From the NCBI GenBank assembly GCA_027491155.1, contig JAIXWR010000044.1:1-64000 (forward strand): DNA of 64,000 bases. Reading direction: 5' to 3'. Shown here piece after piece: positions 41,966-50,173 of this stretch. Position 1 is the stretch's first letter; every line of letters begins with the position of its first letter. Source of the DNA: Verrucomicrobiaceae bacterium (GTDB lineage: Bacteria; Verrucomicrobiota; Verrucomicrobiia; Verrucomicrobiales; Akkermansiaceae). The notes under the pieces are model-generated. The model saw nothing but the letters and a program-made list of their open reading frames with translations, ran no database searches and was not told the DNA's origin. The translations under genes were made by a program, and so were the position numbers.

Positions 41966-42210
41966 GGGGCGCTTCGTCGGGGGGCAGTCTGACTTCCGTC
42001 GCCATGGACGGCAGCTGGAAATTTCGCCGCTCCCGATGCCCGGCGCGGGCCGGGTGGCGATTTTGTAACGGGCGATCGATCCGGGCGTGGCAGCGGGTGC
42101 CTTCCGCCTTGATGCCAAGGATGTTGCAACGCGCTAGGCAAGGCGGGCGAGGCCGCTTCAAGAGGCATGGAAGCTCAGGAATTGCTTTGATTCACGCTGC
42201 GGATGTCCTT

Positions 42211-42216
42211 AGGAGA
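42211..42216 (+). promoter_or_regulatory. Ribosome binding site that fixes the start of the giant quinoprotein
   Basis: AGGAGA lies 6 bases before the ATG at 42223. The same frame is open back to 42004, but this site and the signal peptide right after it show that 42223 is the start. Confidence 0.8.
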
Positions 42217-42222
42217 TTTCCC

Positions 42223-45200
42223 ATGATCCCGGTAAAACCCAAGTTCCGGGGATGGTCTCGCGCCCGCGCCTTGCTGCTGTCGTGCCTGGCTCTCTCCTAC
42301 CACGCCGCCGGCCAGACGGGCGGACTGGATGCTCCCGTCGCGGTGGGAGCTTTCTTCAACGGAGTCTTTCCGGCATCGGCACCCGGACAGGCGACGGGTT
42401 GGGAGACTCAGAACGCCTTTCCCAACCTGACCTTCGTCGACCCGCTGTGGCTGACGGAAATCCCCGGCACGACCCAGTTGCTTCTGGTCGGCAAGAACGG
42501 CCAGCTCTGGCGCTTCGAGAACAATCCGGCGGTGACGCAGGGTCAGGTGACCAAGGTGCTGGAGTGGGTGGCGAACACCCAGTCGTCGGAGGACCAGGGC
42601 TTCTACAGCATCGCCTTCCATCCGCAGTTCGGCCAGCCCGGCTCGCCGAACGCGAACTACGCCTACGTCTGCTACAATCACAGGCCGGCGCTCGTCGGGG
42701 CGGACTCGAACCACTCCTTCTGGCGGGTCTCGCGCTTCACCTGGCAGCCGGCGACCGGCACGCTCGATCCCGCCAGCGAGTTCGTGCTGATGAACCAGTA
42801 CGACCGCTGCCGCTGGCACAACGGCGGCGCGATGTTCTTCGGCAACGACGGCTTCCTTTACATCAACTGCGGCGACGGCGGCGACAGCGCGGAAGGCGGA
42901 GGTCTGCAGGGCGCGGACGGGGCGCTCAGCCGCACCCAGCGGCTCAATTGGGGTTTGTTCAGCGGCGTGTTCCGGATCGACGTCGACAACGACCCGGCGA
43001 AGTCGCACCCGATCCGCCGCCAGCCGCAAAGCCCGACCAACAAGCCGGCCGGTTGGCCCGCGAGCTTCACCCAGGGCTACGGCATCCCGAACGATAACCC
43101 GTGGCAGGACGTCAACGGCGGGATCCTCGAGGAATACTGGTCGCTCGGCCTCCGCAGCCCGCACACGATGCACTACGACGCGGTCACCGGCGACATCTGG
43201 ATCGGCGACGTGGGGGAAGGGGCGCGGGAGGAAATGACGCTCGCACCGAAGGGCAGCAACGCCCAGTGGGGATTCATGGAAGGCGGCATTGGCGGACCGG
43301 GGACCATGCCGGCACCGCTGATCGGGACCAGCCTCGCACCGGTGCTCGATTACAACCGGACCACCGGCACCTGCATCATCGGCGGCATGCGCTACCGGGG
43401 CGCGAAATGGGACAGCCTGCTCGGCGGGAAGCTGCTCTACGGCGACCACGTCCGCGGCCGGATCTGGACCGCCACCTTGGACGGCGGCGGCCCGCCGGTG
43501 ATCCAGGAAATCGTCGCCGGCTTCCCCACCGGCAACAAGGCGGGGCTGGCGAACTTCTGCACCGACTCCAGCGGCGAGATCTTCCTGCTCAACGTCAACG
43601 GCACCAACCAGCCGGGCGGCACCATCCGCAAGCTGGTCGCCGCCGGCGTGTCCACCGAGCCGCCGCAGTTCCTTTCGCAGACCGGCGTTTTCACCAACCT
43701 GAGCACCCTCGCCACCGCACCCGGGGTGATTCCCTACGACGTGGCGAACCCGCTCTGGTCCGACGCCGCGGCGAAGCAACGCTGGATCATCCTGCCCAAC
43801 GACGGCACCCACAACACCGCGGCGGAAGACATCGTCTTCGACGAGGAGGGCAACTGGACCTTCCCCGCGGGCACGGTGTTCGTGAAGCACTTCGAGGTCG
43901 GGCTCGACGAGAACAACCCGGCGGCGGTGAAGCGGCTTGAAACCCGTTTCCTGGTCTGCACCACCGGCGGCGGGAAGTACGGCTTCACCTATCGCTGGAA
44001 CCCGGCGGGGACCGATGCCGAGTTGCTCGCCACCGGGCTGGCCGAAAGCTACACCGTAAGCCTCGCCGGCGGCGGCACGGAGACCCGCAACTGGGATTAC
44101 CCCTCGCGCGCCGATTGCCTGCTCTGCCACAACAACGCGTCCGGCCAGGCGCTCGGCTTCCGCACGCATTCGCTCAACCTGACCCGCCATTACGCGGAGA
44201 CGGGCCGCGACGCGAACCAGCTGGCGACCTTCAACGCGCTGGGGATGTTCAACACCACGCTCACGGCGGCGCAGCTCGAGGACTACATCGAAGCGCGGGC
44301 GATCGACGACGAAAGCGCGCCGATCGAGCACCGCGTGCGTTCCTACCTGGATTCGAACTGCTCGCACTGCCACCGCCCCGGCGGGACGGTCGATGCCTTC
44401 GACGCGCGGCTCGGGACGCCGCTGCATGTCCAGGGGCTGATCAACGGCATGATCCAGGGCCACTTCAGCCTCGGCCCCGACGGCCGCTACCTGAAGCCCG
44501 GCGATCCTTCGCTTTCGGCGGTGCACGTCCGGCTCGCCAACGTCGGCAACGGGGCCGCGATGCCTCCGCTGGCGAAGAACGTGGTGGACCAGGAAGCGGT
44601 GGACCTGCTGCAGGAGTATCTCGAAAGCCTGACCGAAGCCGAGTTCCAGACCACGCCCTCGCCGACGGCCCGCTACGTGCGGTTGACCGCGCTGTCCGAA
44701 GTCAACGGCGCGGCTTGGACCGCGGTCGGGGAGTTCTCGGTGCTCGACGGCAACGGCTCGCCGGTCCCGATCTCGGAGCTTTCGATCCATGACTACGACA
44801 GCGAGGAGCTGGTCGACGAGTTCTCGCCGGTGGTCCGCGTGATCGACGGCAATCCCGACACCTTCTGGCACACCGAGTGGGGCGCGGTGAATCCGCCGCC
44901 GCCGCACTTTGTCACCATCGACCTCGGATCGCTGCGGCCGGTCGGCGGCTTCGTTTACACGCCGCGGCAGGCGGGGGTGAACGGCCGCATCGCGAACTAC
45001 CAGGTCCACTACAGCAGCGACGCGGTGAACTGGACGCTGATGACCTCGGGCACCTGGCCGAACGACGCGGTGCCGAAGCGCTTCGACGGGCTGGCGGGCC
45101 AGCGCAAGGCCCGCTGCCAGATCGCGGGGCCGGCGTCTCCGGTGGGCGGGAGTTTCGACGTGACGGTGGTCTTCGACATGGACGTCACCGATTTCGATGC

Positions 45201-47808
45201 GTCGGACGTGCAGGTGAGCGGTGGCAGTGTCAGCGGCTTCCGCGGCAAGGGCTACTACTACGTGGCTCGTATCAACCCGACGGCTTCGAACGTCACCGTG
45301 TCGGTCCCCGCCGATGCCGCCAACAGCGGCGGGCTCGGCAGCCGCGCCTCGTCCTCGCTGGCGCTTTCCTTCACCGACAGCCTGCCGCCGGTGCCGGAGT
45401 TCACCGGCGTGCCCGCGCAAGTCGCCGGGCCCTTCCAGATCGGGTTGAGCTTCGGCGAGCCGGTCACCGGCCTGACGTCCGGAGATTTCACCGTGACGAA
45501 TGCCACGCTGGATGCGGTGCTACCTTCCGGGGACGACTACATCCTATCGCTCACGCCGCTGGCGGAAGGCACGGTGGGGATTTCCATCGCGGCCGGCGCG
45601 GTGACGGACGGCGCGGGATTGACGATGGGGGCCGGGACTTCGGTGTCCTTGAACCACGTCTTGCAGATCCTGGCCCGCAACGCTTCTGAGGCCTCGTACC
45701 TCGGCGGCGGCATGGTGCTGGTGAACGATCCCGCCGCGCCGAACGGCAGCTACCTGTGGCTGCCCGACGCGGCGTATCCCGGCAATTTCAACCTGCCGGT
45801 GAAGACCCAGCACCGGGCGGAGTTCACCTTCGTGGTGCCCTACGCCGGCCAGTGGATGCTGAGGGGCCTGTTGCGGGCGCCGGACGCTTCGAGCGATTCC
45901 TTCTGGGTGGAAGTCGACGGCAACCAGGCGCTGGGGAGCGTGAATCTTTGGGACACCGGGCCGGTCGGGACGACCTATGTCTGGGACTTCCTGAACAACC
46001 GCAACGTCGCCGATCCGGTGATCCTCAATCTTGCGGCCGGAAGCCACACGGTGACGGTCTTCGCCCGCGACGACGGCACGCGGCTCGCCCGTCTGGAACT
46101 GCAGGCGCTGAACCAGCCGCCGGCCTTCACGTCGGATCCGGTGGCCGGTGCGCCGGGCGCGGCAGGCGCGGCCTACGCGGGAACCCTCGCCGGCAGCGCG
46201 GTCGATCCCGATGCCGGTGACACGGTCACCTACTCGAAGCTCTCCGGACCCTCGTGGCTGGCGATCGCCGCGGGCGGCGGCCTGAGCGGCACGCCGGGTG
46301 GCGGCGACGCGGGGATGAACCATTTCCTCATCCGGGCGACCGATGCGGCGGGGCTCCACGACGACGCGGTGCTTTCGATCCAGGTGACCGGAGCCGCCGG
46401 GAGTCCGCCGGCCTTCCTGTCCGATCCGATCACCGCGGCGCCGGCGACCGAGGACCAGCCCTACTCTGCTTCGATCGCCGCCACGGCATCCGATCCCGAT
46501 CCCGGCGATGTCCTCGTCTTCTCCAAGGTCTCGGGCCCGGGCTGGCTGTCGGTGGCACCGGATGGCGGGCTTTCCGGAACTCCCGGCAACGGCAACACGG
46601 GCGCCAACCTGTTCGTCGTCCGGGTGACGGACGGGGCCGGGTGGACCGACGACGCGCAGATGTCGGTCGAGGTGGCGAACGTCAACGACGCACCCTTCTT
46701 CACTTCGGATCCGGTCGCGGGAAGCCCGGCGACGGAAGACCAGCCCTACTCGGGAACGCTGGCCACCTCGGCCGGGGATCCCGATGGCGGGGATGTGCTC
46801 GTGTTCTCCAAGCAGTCCGGCCCCGGCTGGCTCTCTGTGGCTCCCAACGGTGCCCTTTCGGGCATTCCGGGCAATGCCGACGTGGGCCCGAACCTTTTCG
46901 TGGTCCGTGTCACCGACGGCGGCGGATTCAGCGACGACGCCCAGCTCTCGGTGACGGTGGTGAATGTCAACGACGCCCCGGTCTTCACCGTGGATCCGAT
47001 CCTCCGCGCGGCCGGCAGCGAGGGCCAGGCCTATGCGGGAGCCTCGCTGGCCGGCACGGCGACCGATGCCGATGCGGGGGACAGTGTCAGTTATTCGAAG
47101 TCGGCTGGACCGTCGTGGCTATTGGTGGCGGCGAACGGGTCGCTTTCCGGGACTCCACCGTCGGGCAGCGGGGGAAGCAACGTGTTCACGGTTCTTGCGA
47201 CCGACGGCTCCGGTGGCACTGCGGAAGCCACCTTGATCATCGAGGTGGAAAGCACGGCCTTGCCCTTGCCGTGGGATAGCCTGGGCGTTGGCAGCGGGAA
47301 TCTCGCCGGCTCCGCCTTCCACACGGCGGGGACCTTCACGGTCGCCGGCTCCGGCAGGCTGGAGGGACGCAGCGACGCCTTCCATTTCGCCTGGCAGACG
47401 ATCAGCGGGGACGGGCAGATCACCGCGCGGATCAACGCCTTGCAGGACACCGGAGACGCGGCGCGGGTGGGCGTGATGATCCGCGACACGCTCGCCTCGA
47501 ACTCCCGCCACGTGTTCATCGGGCTCGCCGGAAACGGCGGCTACCGCTGGGTCCGCCGGACGGGCACGAACTTCAACACCACCACCAACCGCAGCGGCAG
47601 CGCCACGGTCCCGGCGGCGTGGGTCCGGCTGGTCCGCAGCGGCGACACCATCGTCACTTACAAGAGCGCCGACGGGATCGCGTGGACGCAGGTCGGCTCG
47701 CTGACGGCATCCTTCCCGGCCAACTGCTACTTCGGGCTCGCGGTGGCAAGCGGCAGCAACACGACCCTCAACACCTCGCAGTTCAGCAACGTTTCCATCA
47801 CCCCCTGA
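42223..47808 (+). CDS. Giant secreted quinoprotein dehydrogenase - cytochrome c - F5/8C - Ig-like protein
   Basis: An 1861-residue exported protein with a signal peptide ending near YHAAG-QT. Domains in order: soluble sugar dehydrogenase-like propeller (about 55-465, with NGGAMFFGNDGFLYINCGDGG and LGLRSPHTMHYD), a region shared with the protein at 8916-13496 carrying CLLCH (Cys632) and CSHCH (Cys713), an F5/8 type C carbohydrate-binding domain (about 818-955), Ig- or cadherin-like strands, four tandem putative-Ig repeats each containing GxxWLSVAPxGxLSGxPG (about 1299-1670), and a C-terminal DUF1349-like sandwich (about 1690-1861). It probably anchors to glycans and oxidises sugars. It lacks the DxDGDG tail of its relative. 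Confidence 0.82.
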   Translation: MIPVKPKFRGWSRARALLLSCLALSYHAAGQTGGLDAPVAVGAFFNGVFPASAPGQATGWETQNAFPNLTFVDPLWLTEIPGTTQLLLVGKNGQLWRFENNPAVTQGQVTKVLEWVANTQSSEDQGFYSIAFHPQFGQPGSPNANYAYVCYNHRPALVGADSNHSFWRVSRFTWQPATGTLDPASEFVLMNQYDRCRWHNGGAMFFGNDGFLYINCGDGGDSAEGGGLQGADGALSRTQRLNWGLFSGVFRIDVDNDPAKSHPIRRQPQSPTNKPAGWPASFTQGYGIPNDNPWQDVNGGILEEYWSLGLRSPHTMHYDAVTGDIWIGDVGEGAREEMTLAPKGSNAQWGFMEGGIGGPGTMPAPLIGTSLAPVLDYNRTTGTCIIGGMRYRGAKWDSLLGGKLLYGDHVRGRIWTATLDGGGPPVIQEIVAGFPTGNKAGLANFCTDSSGEIFLLNVNGTNQPGGTIRKLVAAGVSTEPPQFLSQTGVFTNLSTLATAPGVIPYDVANPLWSDAAAKQRWIILPNDGTHNTAAEDIVFDEEGNWTFPAGTVFVKHFEVGLDENNPAAVKRLETRFLVCTTGGGKYGFTYRWNPAGTDAELLATGLAESYTVSLAGGGTETRNWDYPSRADCLLCHNNASGQALGFRTHSLNLTRHYAETGRDANQLATFNALGMFNTTLTAAQLEDYIEARAIDDESAPIEHRVRSYLDSNCSHCHRPGGTVDAFDARLGTPLHVQGLINGMIQGHFSLGPDGRYLKPGDPSLSAVHVRLANVGNGAAMPPLAKNVVDQEAVDLLQEYLESLTEAEFQTTPSPTARYVRLTALSEVNGAAWTAVGEFSVLDGNGSPVPISELSIHDYDSEELVDEFSPVVRVIDGNPDTFWHTEWGAVNPPPPHFVTIDLGSLRPVGGFVYTPRQAGVNGRIANYQVHYSSDAVNWTLMTSGTWPNDAVPKRFDGLAGQRKARCQIAGPASPVGGSFDVTVVFDMDVTDFDASDVQVSGGSVSGFRGKGYYYVARINPTASNVTVSVPADAANSGGLGSRASSSLALSFTDSLPPVPEFTGVPAQVAGPFQIGLSFGEPVTGLTSGDFTVTNATLDAVLPSGDDYILSLTPLAEGTVGISIAAGAVTDGAGLTMGAGTSVSLNHVLQILARNASEASYLGGGMVLVNDPAAPNGSYLWLPDAAYPGNFNLPVKTQHRAEFTFVVPYAGQWMLRGLLRAPDASSDSFWVEVDGNQALGSVNLWDTGPVGTTYVWDFLNNRNVADPVILNLAAGSHTVTVFARDDGTRLARLELQALNQPPAFTSDPVAGAPGAAGAAYAGTLAGSAVDPDAGDTVTYSKLSGPSWLAIAAGGGLSGTPGGGDAGMNHFLIRATDAAGLHDDAVLSIQVTGAAGSPPAFLSDPITAAPATEDQPYSASIAATASDPDPGDVLVFSKVSGPGWLSVAPDGGLSGTPGNGNTGANLFVVRVTDGAGWTDDAQMSVEVANVNDAPFFTSDPVAGSPATEDQPYSGTLATSAGDPDGGDVLVFSKQSGPGWLSVAPNGALSGIPGNADVGPNLFVVRVTDGGGFSDDAQLSVTVVNVNDAPVFTVDPILRAAGSEGQAYAGASLAGTATDADAGDSVSYSKSAGPSWLLVAANGSLSGTPPSGSGGSNVFTVLATDGSGGTAEATLIIEVESTALPLPWDSLGVGSGNLAGSAFHTAGTFTVAGSGRLEGRSDAFHFAWQTISGDGQITARINALQDTGDAARVGVMIRDTLASNSRHVFIGLAGNGGYRWVRRTGTNFNTTTNRSGSATVPAAWVRLVRSGDTIVTYKSADGIAWTQVGSLTASFPANCYFGLAVASGSNTTLNTSQFSNVSITP

Positions 47809-47872
47809 TCGCCGGCGGCGGCACCGCATGCCCGCCTTGACCGGCGGTGCTCCCGCCGGCATGGTTCGCACG

Positions 47873-48364
47873 ATGTCGGCCACCAAAACGGTTCTATTCG
47901 TCTGCACGGGAAACACCTGCCGCAGCCCGATGGCCGAGGGCTTGTTCCGCAAGGCGGTGGAGGGCCGCGGCGACTTCGAGGTGGCCTCCGCCGGCGTGGC
48001 GGCCTATCCCGGCGACACGGCGAATCCGGAGACCGTGAAGTTCCTCGCCGGCCGCGGGATCGAGCTCGCCGGCTTTTCCAGCCAGCCGGTGTCGCCGGAA
48101 CTGCTGGAGAACGCGACCCATGTCTTCGCGATGACCTCCGGCCATCTGGAAGCGCTGGAGAGCCTGTTCCCCGAGTATTCGGACAAGTTTTTCCTGGTCT
48201 GCGAGTTCGTCGAGATCCCGGGCCGCGGCGTGGCGGCCGACGTGCCGGACCCCATCGGCATGGGCCGCAAGGCCTACGAGGAAACCGGCAAGACGCTGGA
48301 CCTCGCGATCCCGACCCTGGTCGCCTTCATCGACCAGACCTGGCAGGGGGGAAGTGCCAAGTAG
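47873..48364 (+). CDS. ywlE: YwlE-type low-molecular-weight phosphatase (probable protein-arginine phosphatase)
   Basis: A 163-residue LMW-PTP-fold enzyme with the CX5R loop CTGNTCRSP (nucleophile Cys11, Arg17) and the general-acid Asp in DVPDPIG. In ordinary LMW tyrosine phosphatases the fifth loop position is Ile (CLGNICRSP). Here it is Thr15, as in Bacillus YwlE, where this Thr is known to favour phospho-arginine. That makes arginine phosphatase activity likely but not proven; no McsB kinase is in the window. Starts at 47828 and 47861 are possible, but 47873 gives the usual MSATKTVLFV. The last residues and stop are formed by an inverted repeat (48350-48460). Confidence 0.85.
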   Translation: MSATKTVLFVCTGNTCRSPMAEGLFRKAVEGRGDFEVASAGVAAYPGDTANPETVKFLAGRGIELAGFSSQPVSPELLENATHVFAMTSGHLEALESLFPEYSDKFFLVCEFVEIPGRGVAADVPDPIGMGRKAYEETGKTLDLAIPTLVAFIDQTWQGGSAK

Positions 48365-48460
48365 GAAGTTCCAAGTGCCAAGGGAACCGCCGCTGAATCG
48401 AGGCGATCCGGGATTTTTCGCGCCTTTTTCGGCACCCGGCACTTCTGACTTGGCACTTCC
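48350..48460. repeat. Inverted repeat overlapping the end of ywlE
   Basis: The left arm 48350-48372 (GGAAGTGCCAAGTAGGAAG...) and right arm 48438-48460 are imperfect complements built of the short unit GAAGTGCCAAG, which also recurs between them. The left arm supplies the last four residues and the TAG of ywlE. Confidence 0.75.
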
Positions 48461-48499
48461 GGCCTCCGAGCCAATTTCCGTGCGCCCCAAGCCATCACC

Positions 48500-50173
48500 A
48501 TGAGCCAGAAGTCCCTGCGAATTGCCCTCGGCGCCGATCACGGCGGAGTTGCCCTCAAAGACGCCCTTGTCGCCCATCTCACGGCTGCCGGGCACGAGGT
48601 GACGGACTTCGGCACCCACGGCACGGAATCGGTGGACTACGCCGACTACGCGAATCTGGTCGCACGGGCGGTTTCCGACGGCACCCGGGACTTCGGCATC
48701 GTCTGCTGCACTTCCGGCGTCGGCGTCTGCATCGCCGCCAACCGCCACCGCCACGTCCGGGCGGCGAACGTGCGGACCGTTGAAGAAGCGGTGGTCACCC
48801 GCCAGCACAACGACGCCAACGTGCTCTGCCTGGGCGGCAAGTCGCTGGATGCCGCGACGGCCGCGGCGATGGCCGATGCCTTCCTTTCCACCGCCTTCGA
48901 GGGCGGCCGTCACGAGCTCCGCGTCTGCAAGTCATCCGGCTCCCGGATCGCGGAGACCGATCCCGACCTCTACGCCGCCATCGTCGCCGAAGAACGCCGC
49001 CAGCGGAACAACATCGAGCTGATCGCCTCCGAGAACTTCGCCTCGCCGGCGGTGATGGAAGCGCAGGGTTCGGTGCTGACCAACAAATACGCCGAGGGTT
49101 ACCCCGGCCGCCGCTGGTACGGCGGCTGCGAGAACGTCGACGTGGTCGAGCAGCTCGCCATCGACCGCGCCAAGAAGCTGTTCGGTGCCGAGCACGCCAA
49201 CGTGCAGCCGCATTCCGGCTCGCAGGCGAACACGGCGGTCTATTTCTCCGTCCTCAAGCCCGGCGACAAGATCCTGACCATGGACCTGGCGCACGGCGGC
49301 CACCTGACCCACGGTCACAAGGCGAACTTCTCCGGCAAGTTTTACGACGTGGTCCACTACGGCGTGAGCCCGGATGACGAGCGGATCGACTACGATGCCC
49401 TCGCCGAACTCGCCCGCGAGTGCAAGCCGGCCCTGATCACCTGCGGGGCCAGCGCCTACTCCCGCGTGATCGATTTCGAACGGATGTCGAAGATCGCCCG
49501 CGAGGTCGGTGCCTACCTCTTCGTCGACATGGCGCACATCGCCGGCCTCGTCGCCGCCGGGGTGCACCCGAACCCGGTTCCGCACGCCGACTTCGTCACC
49601 TCCACCACCCACAAGTCGCTGCGCGGCCCGCGCGGCGGGATCATCCTGTGCAAGGAGGAGTTCGCGAAGAAGATCGACGCCCAGGTCTTCCCGGGCATCC
49701 AGGGTGGCCCGCTGATGCACGTCATCGCGGCCAAGGCGATCTGCTTCGGGGAGGCGCTCAAGCCGGACTTCCGGGGCTATCAGGAGCAGGTGATCAAGAA
49801 CTCTCAGGCCCTCGCCGCGCGGCTCACGCAGCACGGCTTCCGCATCGTTTCCGGCGGCTCGGACAACCACGTGATGATGGTCGACCTGCGGCCGAAGGGC
49901 CTCAACGGCGCCGATGCCTCCCACGCTTTGGACGAGGCCGGCATCACGGTGAACAAGAACTCGATCCCCTTCGACACCGGCACCCCGATGAAGCCGAGCG
50001 GCATCCGCATCGGCACCCCGGCGGTCACGACCCGCGGGATGAAAGAGAAGGACGTCGAGCAGGTGGCCGACTTCATCGCCGAGGCGCTGGGCGCGATCGG
50101 CGACGAGCCGAAGCTGCACGCGATCCGCGAGAAGGTCTTCGCCTTCAACCGGGCGTTCCCGATGCCGTGGTGA
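48500..50173 (+). CDS. rpiB-glyA: Fused ribose-5-phosphate isomerase B - serine hydroxymethyltransferase
   Basis: A single 557-residue reading frame with two complete enzymes. Residues 1 to about 143 are RpiB: GADHGG (Asp13, His14), [14 protein letters not shown] with Cys70 aligned to the E. coli catalytic Cys66, RQHNDANVL and EGGRHELRV. Residues of about 150-557 are serine hydroxymethyltransferase: [38 protein letters not shown] and the PLP lysine in [13 protein letters not shown] (Lys372). SHMT makes glycine and methylene-THF from serine; RpiB interconverts ribulose- and ribose-5-phosphate. No start codon, stop or ribosome site interrupts the joint of about 8 residues. The gene follows the YwlE-type phosphatase by 135 bases. 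Confidence 0.95.

Follow-up and report, generated by a model that had tools for sequence, protein, structure and literature searches.

The window, a stretch of 64,000 nucleotides of verrucomicrobial DNA, contains a single open frame that joins RpiB to SHMT, two proteins usually treated as independent housekeeping enzymes, and that lies directly behind a phosphatase gene. The locus thus raises the question of whether the join is real and, if so, what the composite protein does and why its parts have been kept together. In our analysis the product is very probably a genuine bifunctional housekeeping RpiB-SHMT, derived from an ancient phosphatase-rpiB-glyA gene order by loss of a stop codon in a verrucomicrobial ancestor. 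The fusion gene and its parts are as follows:

48500..50173, + strand: rpiB-glyA fusion gene, a single open frame of 557 aa, predicted bifunctional RpiB-SHMT
48521..48928, + strand: RpiB domain PF02502 (LacAB_rpiB), residues 8-143, E 1.1e-48
48707..48709, + strand: codon of Cys70, invariant across a 31-row alignment
48929..48949, + strand: RpiB/SHMT joint, residues 144-150, without an in-frame start codon
48950..50077, + strand: SHMT domain PF00464, residues 151-526, E 4.9e-171, with homology on to about residue 555
49613..49615, + strand: codon of Lys372, the PLP-binding lysine (TTHKSLRG), conserved as Lys in all 192 aligned SHMT rows

The initial annotation had described RpiB and SHMT, each complete and with intact catalytic residues, in 48500-50173, and this description holds: both domains match Pfam and NCBIfam models above cut-off, and Cys70 and Lys372 are in place. 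The fusion scores 144.1 bits against a cut-off of 138.65 with TIGR01120 (the NCBIfam RpiB equivalog), 159.1 against 135 with PRK05571, and 642.8 bits against 335 with NF000586 (an NCBIfam SHMT subfamily), the last match covering positions 1-403 of the 404 in the model. The RpiB active-site set (D13, H14, C70, H103, N104, R137 and R141) is present in full and invariant in the 31 rows; we take Cys70 to be the equivalent of the RpiB catalytic base, and the remaining members presumably fill the roles of the Asp-His pair, the His-Asn pair and the two Arg. In a wider alignment, 13 key RpiB positions are all standard in 170 of 178 rows, the window's included, while two rows carry one substitution and six have lost several (the window's locus is present three times in this set, which runs over loci up to L194, and likewise in the 192-row SHMT set). 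An AlphaFold2 model of the fusion built on the 31-row alignment reached a mean pLDDT of 85.7 and a pTM of 0.81. The 50 Foldseek matches listed are all SHMT structures (TM, target, 0.89-0.96), and are therefore uninformative on the RpiB part. Both domains are under purifying selection, with pN/pS values across five pairwise comparisons of 0.14-0.25 in RpiB and 0.06-0.11 in SHMT.

The joint itself was said to bear no sign of a start or stop, and an in-frame codon scan bears this out for the window: within residues 120-200 of the fusion, ATG, GTG or TTG occur solely at positions 124, 185, 186 and 192, so that the joint contains no separate SHMT start. Among the relatives, a codon of this kind falls within the joint in 123 of the 196 fused loci, which makes internal initiation possible there and means that the start-less joint is true of the window and not of the family. 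In the AlphaFold model, the last RpiB helix (residues 137-145) is followed after three residues by the first SHMT helix (149-153); across the fused loci, the linker between the two domains ranges from 9 to 40 residues.

An error of assembly or sequencing at about 48935-48955, joining two separate genes, had been named as one threat to this reading. The probability of such an error is negligible: the same joint recurs in 192 distinct fused sequences, those of the single-contig genomes G002, G009, G039 and G076 included, and the unbroken frame in the genomes of relatives rules the error out, so the fusion stands. The gene is matched over its full length, in a single frame without stops, in 51 of 57 genomes (that of the window plus 56 relatives), the remaining six comprising four without a match, one with a weak match and one with a fragment; G019, which is 99% complete, is one of these six, and neither G019 nor G159 (genus code g3; 99% and 98% complete) gave an RpiB-SHMT match at 1e-6. 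Of 586 confirmed stretches the best 80 were kept, and in every one of these (80/80) the joint is read through without a stop; in L081 and L096 the frame reaches the contig end beyond the joint, L065 spans 557 aa without a stop, and the best titled match, from Haloferula sp. BvORR071, is 90% identical.

Extending the search across Verrucomicrobiota, as the initial annotation had proposed, revealed that the fusion is widespread in the phylum and its joint unbroken. Matches at 1e-10 were obtained in 280 of 288 sampled genomes, with eight lacking one, and most of the matches listed are full-length. Of the genomes fetched outside the class, 57 of 62 carry the fusion, a share that is biased upward because selection was limited to genomes with matches, a good number of which were strong. 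Of the remaining five, G242 has rpiB and glyA in overlapping different frames, perhaps through a frame error, G316 has a locus cut by a contig end, and three members of family f38 (G245, G261 and G282) have a distant SHMT. Separate rpiB and glyA genes in close relatives would also have spoken against the fusion; none occur among the close relatives examined, whereas the two genes are separate in more distant members of the class, families f13 and f16. The fusion is genuine and long established in the phylum.

To describe how the neighbourhood varies, 234 loci (230 distinct) were classed by profile HMMs, with L denoting the phosphatase, R the RpiB, S the SHMT and "=" a shared frame. A single open frame holds both R and S in 196 loci, of which 192 are distinct, and the architectures are distributed as follows:

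L R=S, the window's type: 76 loci
R=S, no phosphatase detected in the 1.3 kb before the fusion (a contig or stretch end truncates some of these loci): 63 loci
L=R=S, triple fusion: 56 loci, one with a second L
L R R=S, frame-broken: 1 locus
L=S, no RpiB between: 7 loci (L138-L141, L143, L144 and L221)
L S: 7 loci
S: 11 loci, among them four same-genus paralogues, one frame-broken locus and one truncated at a contig end
S=S, distant SHMT: 5 loci
R S, 4 loci; L R S, 3 loci; L L R S, 1 locus; these include four plasmid outgroup loci

The four same-genus paralogues (L227-L230, in G003, G009, G015 and G011) are second, stand-alone SHMT genes, 80-82% identical to the fused SHMT domain; they form one clade on the SHMT tree, so a single duplication without the RpiB part is likely.

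The initial annotation had left it open whether such a fusion was already described. A larger version was reported in 2008: Hou et al. 2008 (PMC2474590) described a protein of Methylacidiphilum infernorum V4, Minf_1669, that fuses phosphatase, RpiB and SHMT, and suggested a tight connection between serine and pentose-phosphate metabolism for that organism. This kind of fusion has been known since that date. Like the window's product, Minf_1669 combines RpiB and SHMT in a single polypeptide of a verrucomicrobial organism; unlike it, Minf_1669 also includes the phosphatase, which the window encodes separately, 135 bp before the fusion and not in the same frame. The triple fusion, of which there was a single description from 2008, proves to be frequent in the class, with 56 loci. 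Among the papers brought up by our literature searches, PMC2474590 is the sole one that we saw describe such a protein, and we found no account of the phylum-wide spread, the two-domain form, the RpiB decay described below or the phosphatase-SHMT form.

The same genes also occur side by side without being joined. The order ywlE-rpiB-glyA, which had been given for Bacillus, was recovered in an annotated Bacillaceae record (Priestia), where phosphatase, rpiB, a TIGR01440 protein, glyA and upp follow one another; the order of phosphatase, RpiB and SHMT is that of the window, but all genes are separate and the TIGR01440 protein stands between rpiB and glyA. In a Sphingomonas record, where the order is rpiB, glyA, a small ORF and nrdR, rpiB directly precedes glyA as in the window, but as a separate gene 18 bp away, and no phosphatase is annotated in the stretch. 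In a plasmid collection the query was covered to at least 80% by four records, each of which encodes rpiB and glyA in separate frames.

The architectures were compared on SHMT trees of 172 and 135 rows, rooted on Bacillota and Alphaproteobacteria plasmid loci. By parsimony, the R=S joint requires three changes, one joining and two separations, and the joining falls at the ancestor of the sampled phylum, a placement favoured by a single step over the alternative. The L joint requires about 13 changes on the same tree and is thus labile. All four cost schemes applied favour an L-joined state for the class ancestor (the node leaves aside four triple-fusion rows of f67 and f69 that fall elsewhere); for the window's family, the ancestral state of the L joint is a tie under equal costs, so its separate phosphatase may be a fission product or may never have been joined. 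The separate RpiB genes of f13 and f16 group with alphaproteobacterial RpiB with a support of 81, a placement that is not firm. Pairwise R and S distances across 102 fused proteins correlate with r 0.61, the highest value among 500 permutations being 0.12, so the divergence of the two domains is correlated. The fusion was probably inherited for the most part vertically.

The scheme that we favour is the following. The stop between rpiB and glyA would have been lost in the ancestor of the sampled Verrucomicrobiota, and the phosphatase would also have been joined in many lineages and, in the window's family, have separated again or never been joined. The N-terminal RpiB would interconvert ribulose-5-phosphate and ribose-5-phosphate, and the C-terminal PLP-dependent SHMT would interconvert serine plus THF with glycine plus 5,10-methylene-THF; we infer that both activities are exerted in vivo. 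What is known of the pathways suggests that the tether would fix production of the two activities at 1:1 for one demand, probably nucleotide synthesis, which draws on ribose-5-phosphate/PRPP, glycine and one-carbon units. Since the RpiB and SHMT reactions have no metabolite in common, direct channelling is improbable, and two domains working independently at a fixed stoichiometry are the most likely arrangement. RpiB and SHMT are both dimers, so the fused protein could form a homodimer or a larger assembly.

Why the joint has persisted is a further question, and the answers to it discussed here, neutral or regulatory, are compatible with a bifunctional enzyme. The loss of a stop codon between adjacent co-transcribed genes may have been fixed by drift, the joint then being kept solely because fission needs a new start site; we put this at slightly below an even chance. 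The unfused occurrence of the same gene order elsewhere agrees with such a history, as do the roughly 13 changes at the phosphatase joint, the lack of a metabolite common to both reactions, and the class families f7, f9, f13, f14, f16 and f17, which live with separate genes or without an RpiB domain. The trees argue in the other direction, since the R=S joint has changed three times where the neighbouring L joint has changed 13 times.

Lineages in which the fused RpiB has degenerated offer a second view of the tether. Decayed middle RpiB domains are found in the phosphatase-RpiB-SHMT frames of six loci (L133-L137 and L142; L137 is also frame-broken), with Cys70 replaced in four of the six; these loci form one clade of the SHMT tree, and all six genomes possess a stand-alone RpiB. 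Across 63 genomes of the class, the fused RpiB is intact in 36, decayed in 8, lost in 16 and separate in 3 (unfetched genomes, the decayed G109 and G310 among them, were sorted by open frame and Pfam score only). Where it is intact, 23 genomes show no other RpiB or RpiA, while another RpiB-family gene is present in 12, including the window's, and RpiA in one; where it is decayed or lost (24 genomes), a stand-alone RpiB is present in 22, RpiA in G302 and neither in G323. Fisher's test on 42 genomes gives p 1e-5 for this association with a replacement, although a sign test corrected for kinship, which comprises 3-4 independent contrasts, is not significant. The pattern fits a working isomerase that was let go only once it had been replaced.

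These same loci bear on the possibility that the joint is a selected regulatory device, in which SHMT, RpiB and, where fused, the phosphatase modulate one another allosterically or by phosphorylation and so link pentose phosphate and serine/folate flux. The stability of the R-S joint on the tree, the persistence of phosphatase-SHMT frames without RpiB in seven loci and the retention of an RpiB without catalytic residues as the middle domain in six would all be expected of such a device. A linker that varies from 9 to 40 residues, a triple-fusion model whose domain placement is of low overall confidence (pTM 0.57) and the several lineages that dispense with the link speak against it, and we consider it unlikely. 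A bolder, speculative reading, to which we give only a small chance, is that the phylum built a multi-enzyme polypeptide and then dismantled it, with selection keeping the phosphatase in contact with SHMT, which it may control. The series would run from adjacent genes to RpiB-SHMT, phosphatase-RpiB-SHMT, a dead middle RpiB, phosphatase-SHMT and finally separate genes; if so, a phosphatase that is still attached to SHMT after RpiB loss would imply that this contact, and not the pentose-phosphate link, is what is selected.

For the bifunctional enzyme that we favour, the decayed and lost RpiB cases provide a test of the tether's purpose, and the fusion itself hints at a joint balancing of ribose-5-phosphate and one-carbon supply. 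Being phylum-wide, it can serve as a lineage marker, and in annotation one gene should be read as both rpiB and glyA in Akkermansia and its kin.

In the window's own genome (5.73 Mb in 46 contigs, 99.67% complete with 4.56% contamination) the fusion is the sole SHMT. A search of this genome for RpiA found none, and two RpiB-family matches were obtained, the fusion itself and a free-standing gene on contig C4:

G000:C4:42562-42990 (in L003): stand-alone second RpiB, 39% identical to the fused domain

This gene scores over the RpiB subfamily model and under the equivalog cut-off. Its presence means that the fused domain may not be the main isomerase of this organism.

The gene upstream of the fusion had been described as a low-molecular-weight phosphatase with the Thr of arginine phosphatases, a description with which its profile match and P-loop agree:

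47873..48364, + strand: low-molecular-weight phosphatase gene with a YwlE-type P-loop, CTGNTCRS; PF01451 (LMWPc) E 3.7e-31, over cut-off

The gene starts at 47873 or at an alternative upstream ATG at 47828, and its stop codon (48362-48364) is separated from the fusion start at 48500 by the 135 bp gap. The specificity position of the P-loop (PX5) is Thr, as in YwlE and PtpB. None of the NCBIfam phosphatase equivalogs scored over its cut-off, the best being a phosphotyrosine phosphatase model with 62.5 bits against 247.

The initial annotation further proposed a selected link between pentose phosphate and serine/glycine/folate flux, perhaps under arginine-phosphate control, and suggested a look for McsB. 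The window's genome does contain McsB, over cut-off, with a McsA-like gene just upstream of it that scores below the McsA cut-off. McsB occurs in 78 of 80 genomes, irrespective of their architecture; the query was the window genome's own McsB, as a PF00217 search matched 0 of 14 controls, including Bacillus subtilis, which has McsB. The specificity residue of the 56 phosphatases fused to RpiB is Ile in 28, Val in 12, Thr in 9, Ser in 4, Ala in 1 and unreadable in 2, which amounts to Ile or Val in 40 of the 54 readable cases. Among separate phosphatases, it is Thr in 38 of 40 of a set like the window's family, with two unreadable (L004-L083 and L232-L234, a few duplicates included), Val or Ile in three that fall just outside this set, and mixed outside the class (16 Thr, 8 Ile, 7 Val and 2 Ser of 33). 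In ten triple-fusion genomes (G340, G333, G341, G359, G363, G334, G346, G366, G063 and G097), the fused phosphatase is the sole phosphatase match at E up to 1e-6, and no separate YwlE was seen taking over at that threshold; this result is compatible both with arginine-phosphatase activity of the Ile/Val forms and with its absence.

The exchange of Thr for Ile at this position has been characterized in B. subtilis YwlE and S. aureus PtpB, whose specificity Thr the window's phosphatase shares: PMC8001253 reports that the change raises pNPP hydrolysis by PtpB about 6-fold, and cites earlier work in which it moved the preference of YwlE away from phosphoarginine and towards phosphotyrosine. The fused homologues differ from these enzymes in being mostly Ile/Val, and an arginine-phosphatase role of the window's protein is putative. 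A phosphatase-RpiB-SHMT unit acting in an arginine-phosphorylation circuit, with McsB as the kinase and a YwlE-type phosphatase, would accord with the McsB and McsA-like genes of the window's genome, with the near-ubiquity of McsB in the 80 genomes, with Thr in the window and the family-like set, and with the lone fused phosphatase of the ten triple-fusion genomes. We nonetheless hold it to be very improbable: McsB occurs independently of architecture, the residues that predominate in the fused phosphatases favour phosphotyrosine in YwlE/PtpB (PMC8001253), and fewer than half of the separate phosphatases outside the class carry Thr. The fusion is thus not tied to the arginine-phosphatase residue. 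The proposed link survives in so far as the fusion is maintained, as its spread through the phylum and the purifying selection on it indicate; the idea that the genes are linked because of arginine phosphate is not supported, being weakened by the Ile/Val residues and by the indifference of McsB to architecture, and the lability of the phosphatase joint and the 63 of 196 fused loci in which no nearby upstream phosphatase was detected point the same way.

Two further features flank the phosphatase gene. On its upstream side, 42004-47808 is occupied by a 1934-codon ORF that, by eye, looks secreted and repeat-rich, with a start resembling a sugar dehydrogenase. On the other side, the gap before the fusion is flanked by an inverted repeat:

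48351..48459, no strand assigned: inverted repeat GAAGTGCCAAG ... CTTGGCACTTC on either side of the phosphatase/RpiB gap, fold z -3.05

The left arm is directly followed by the phosphatase stop codon, and the motif is found, whole or in part, in three of the 12 phosphatase-RpiB gaps compared, those of the window, L012 and L005 (one arm, partial).
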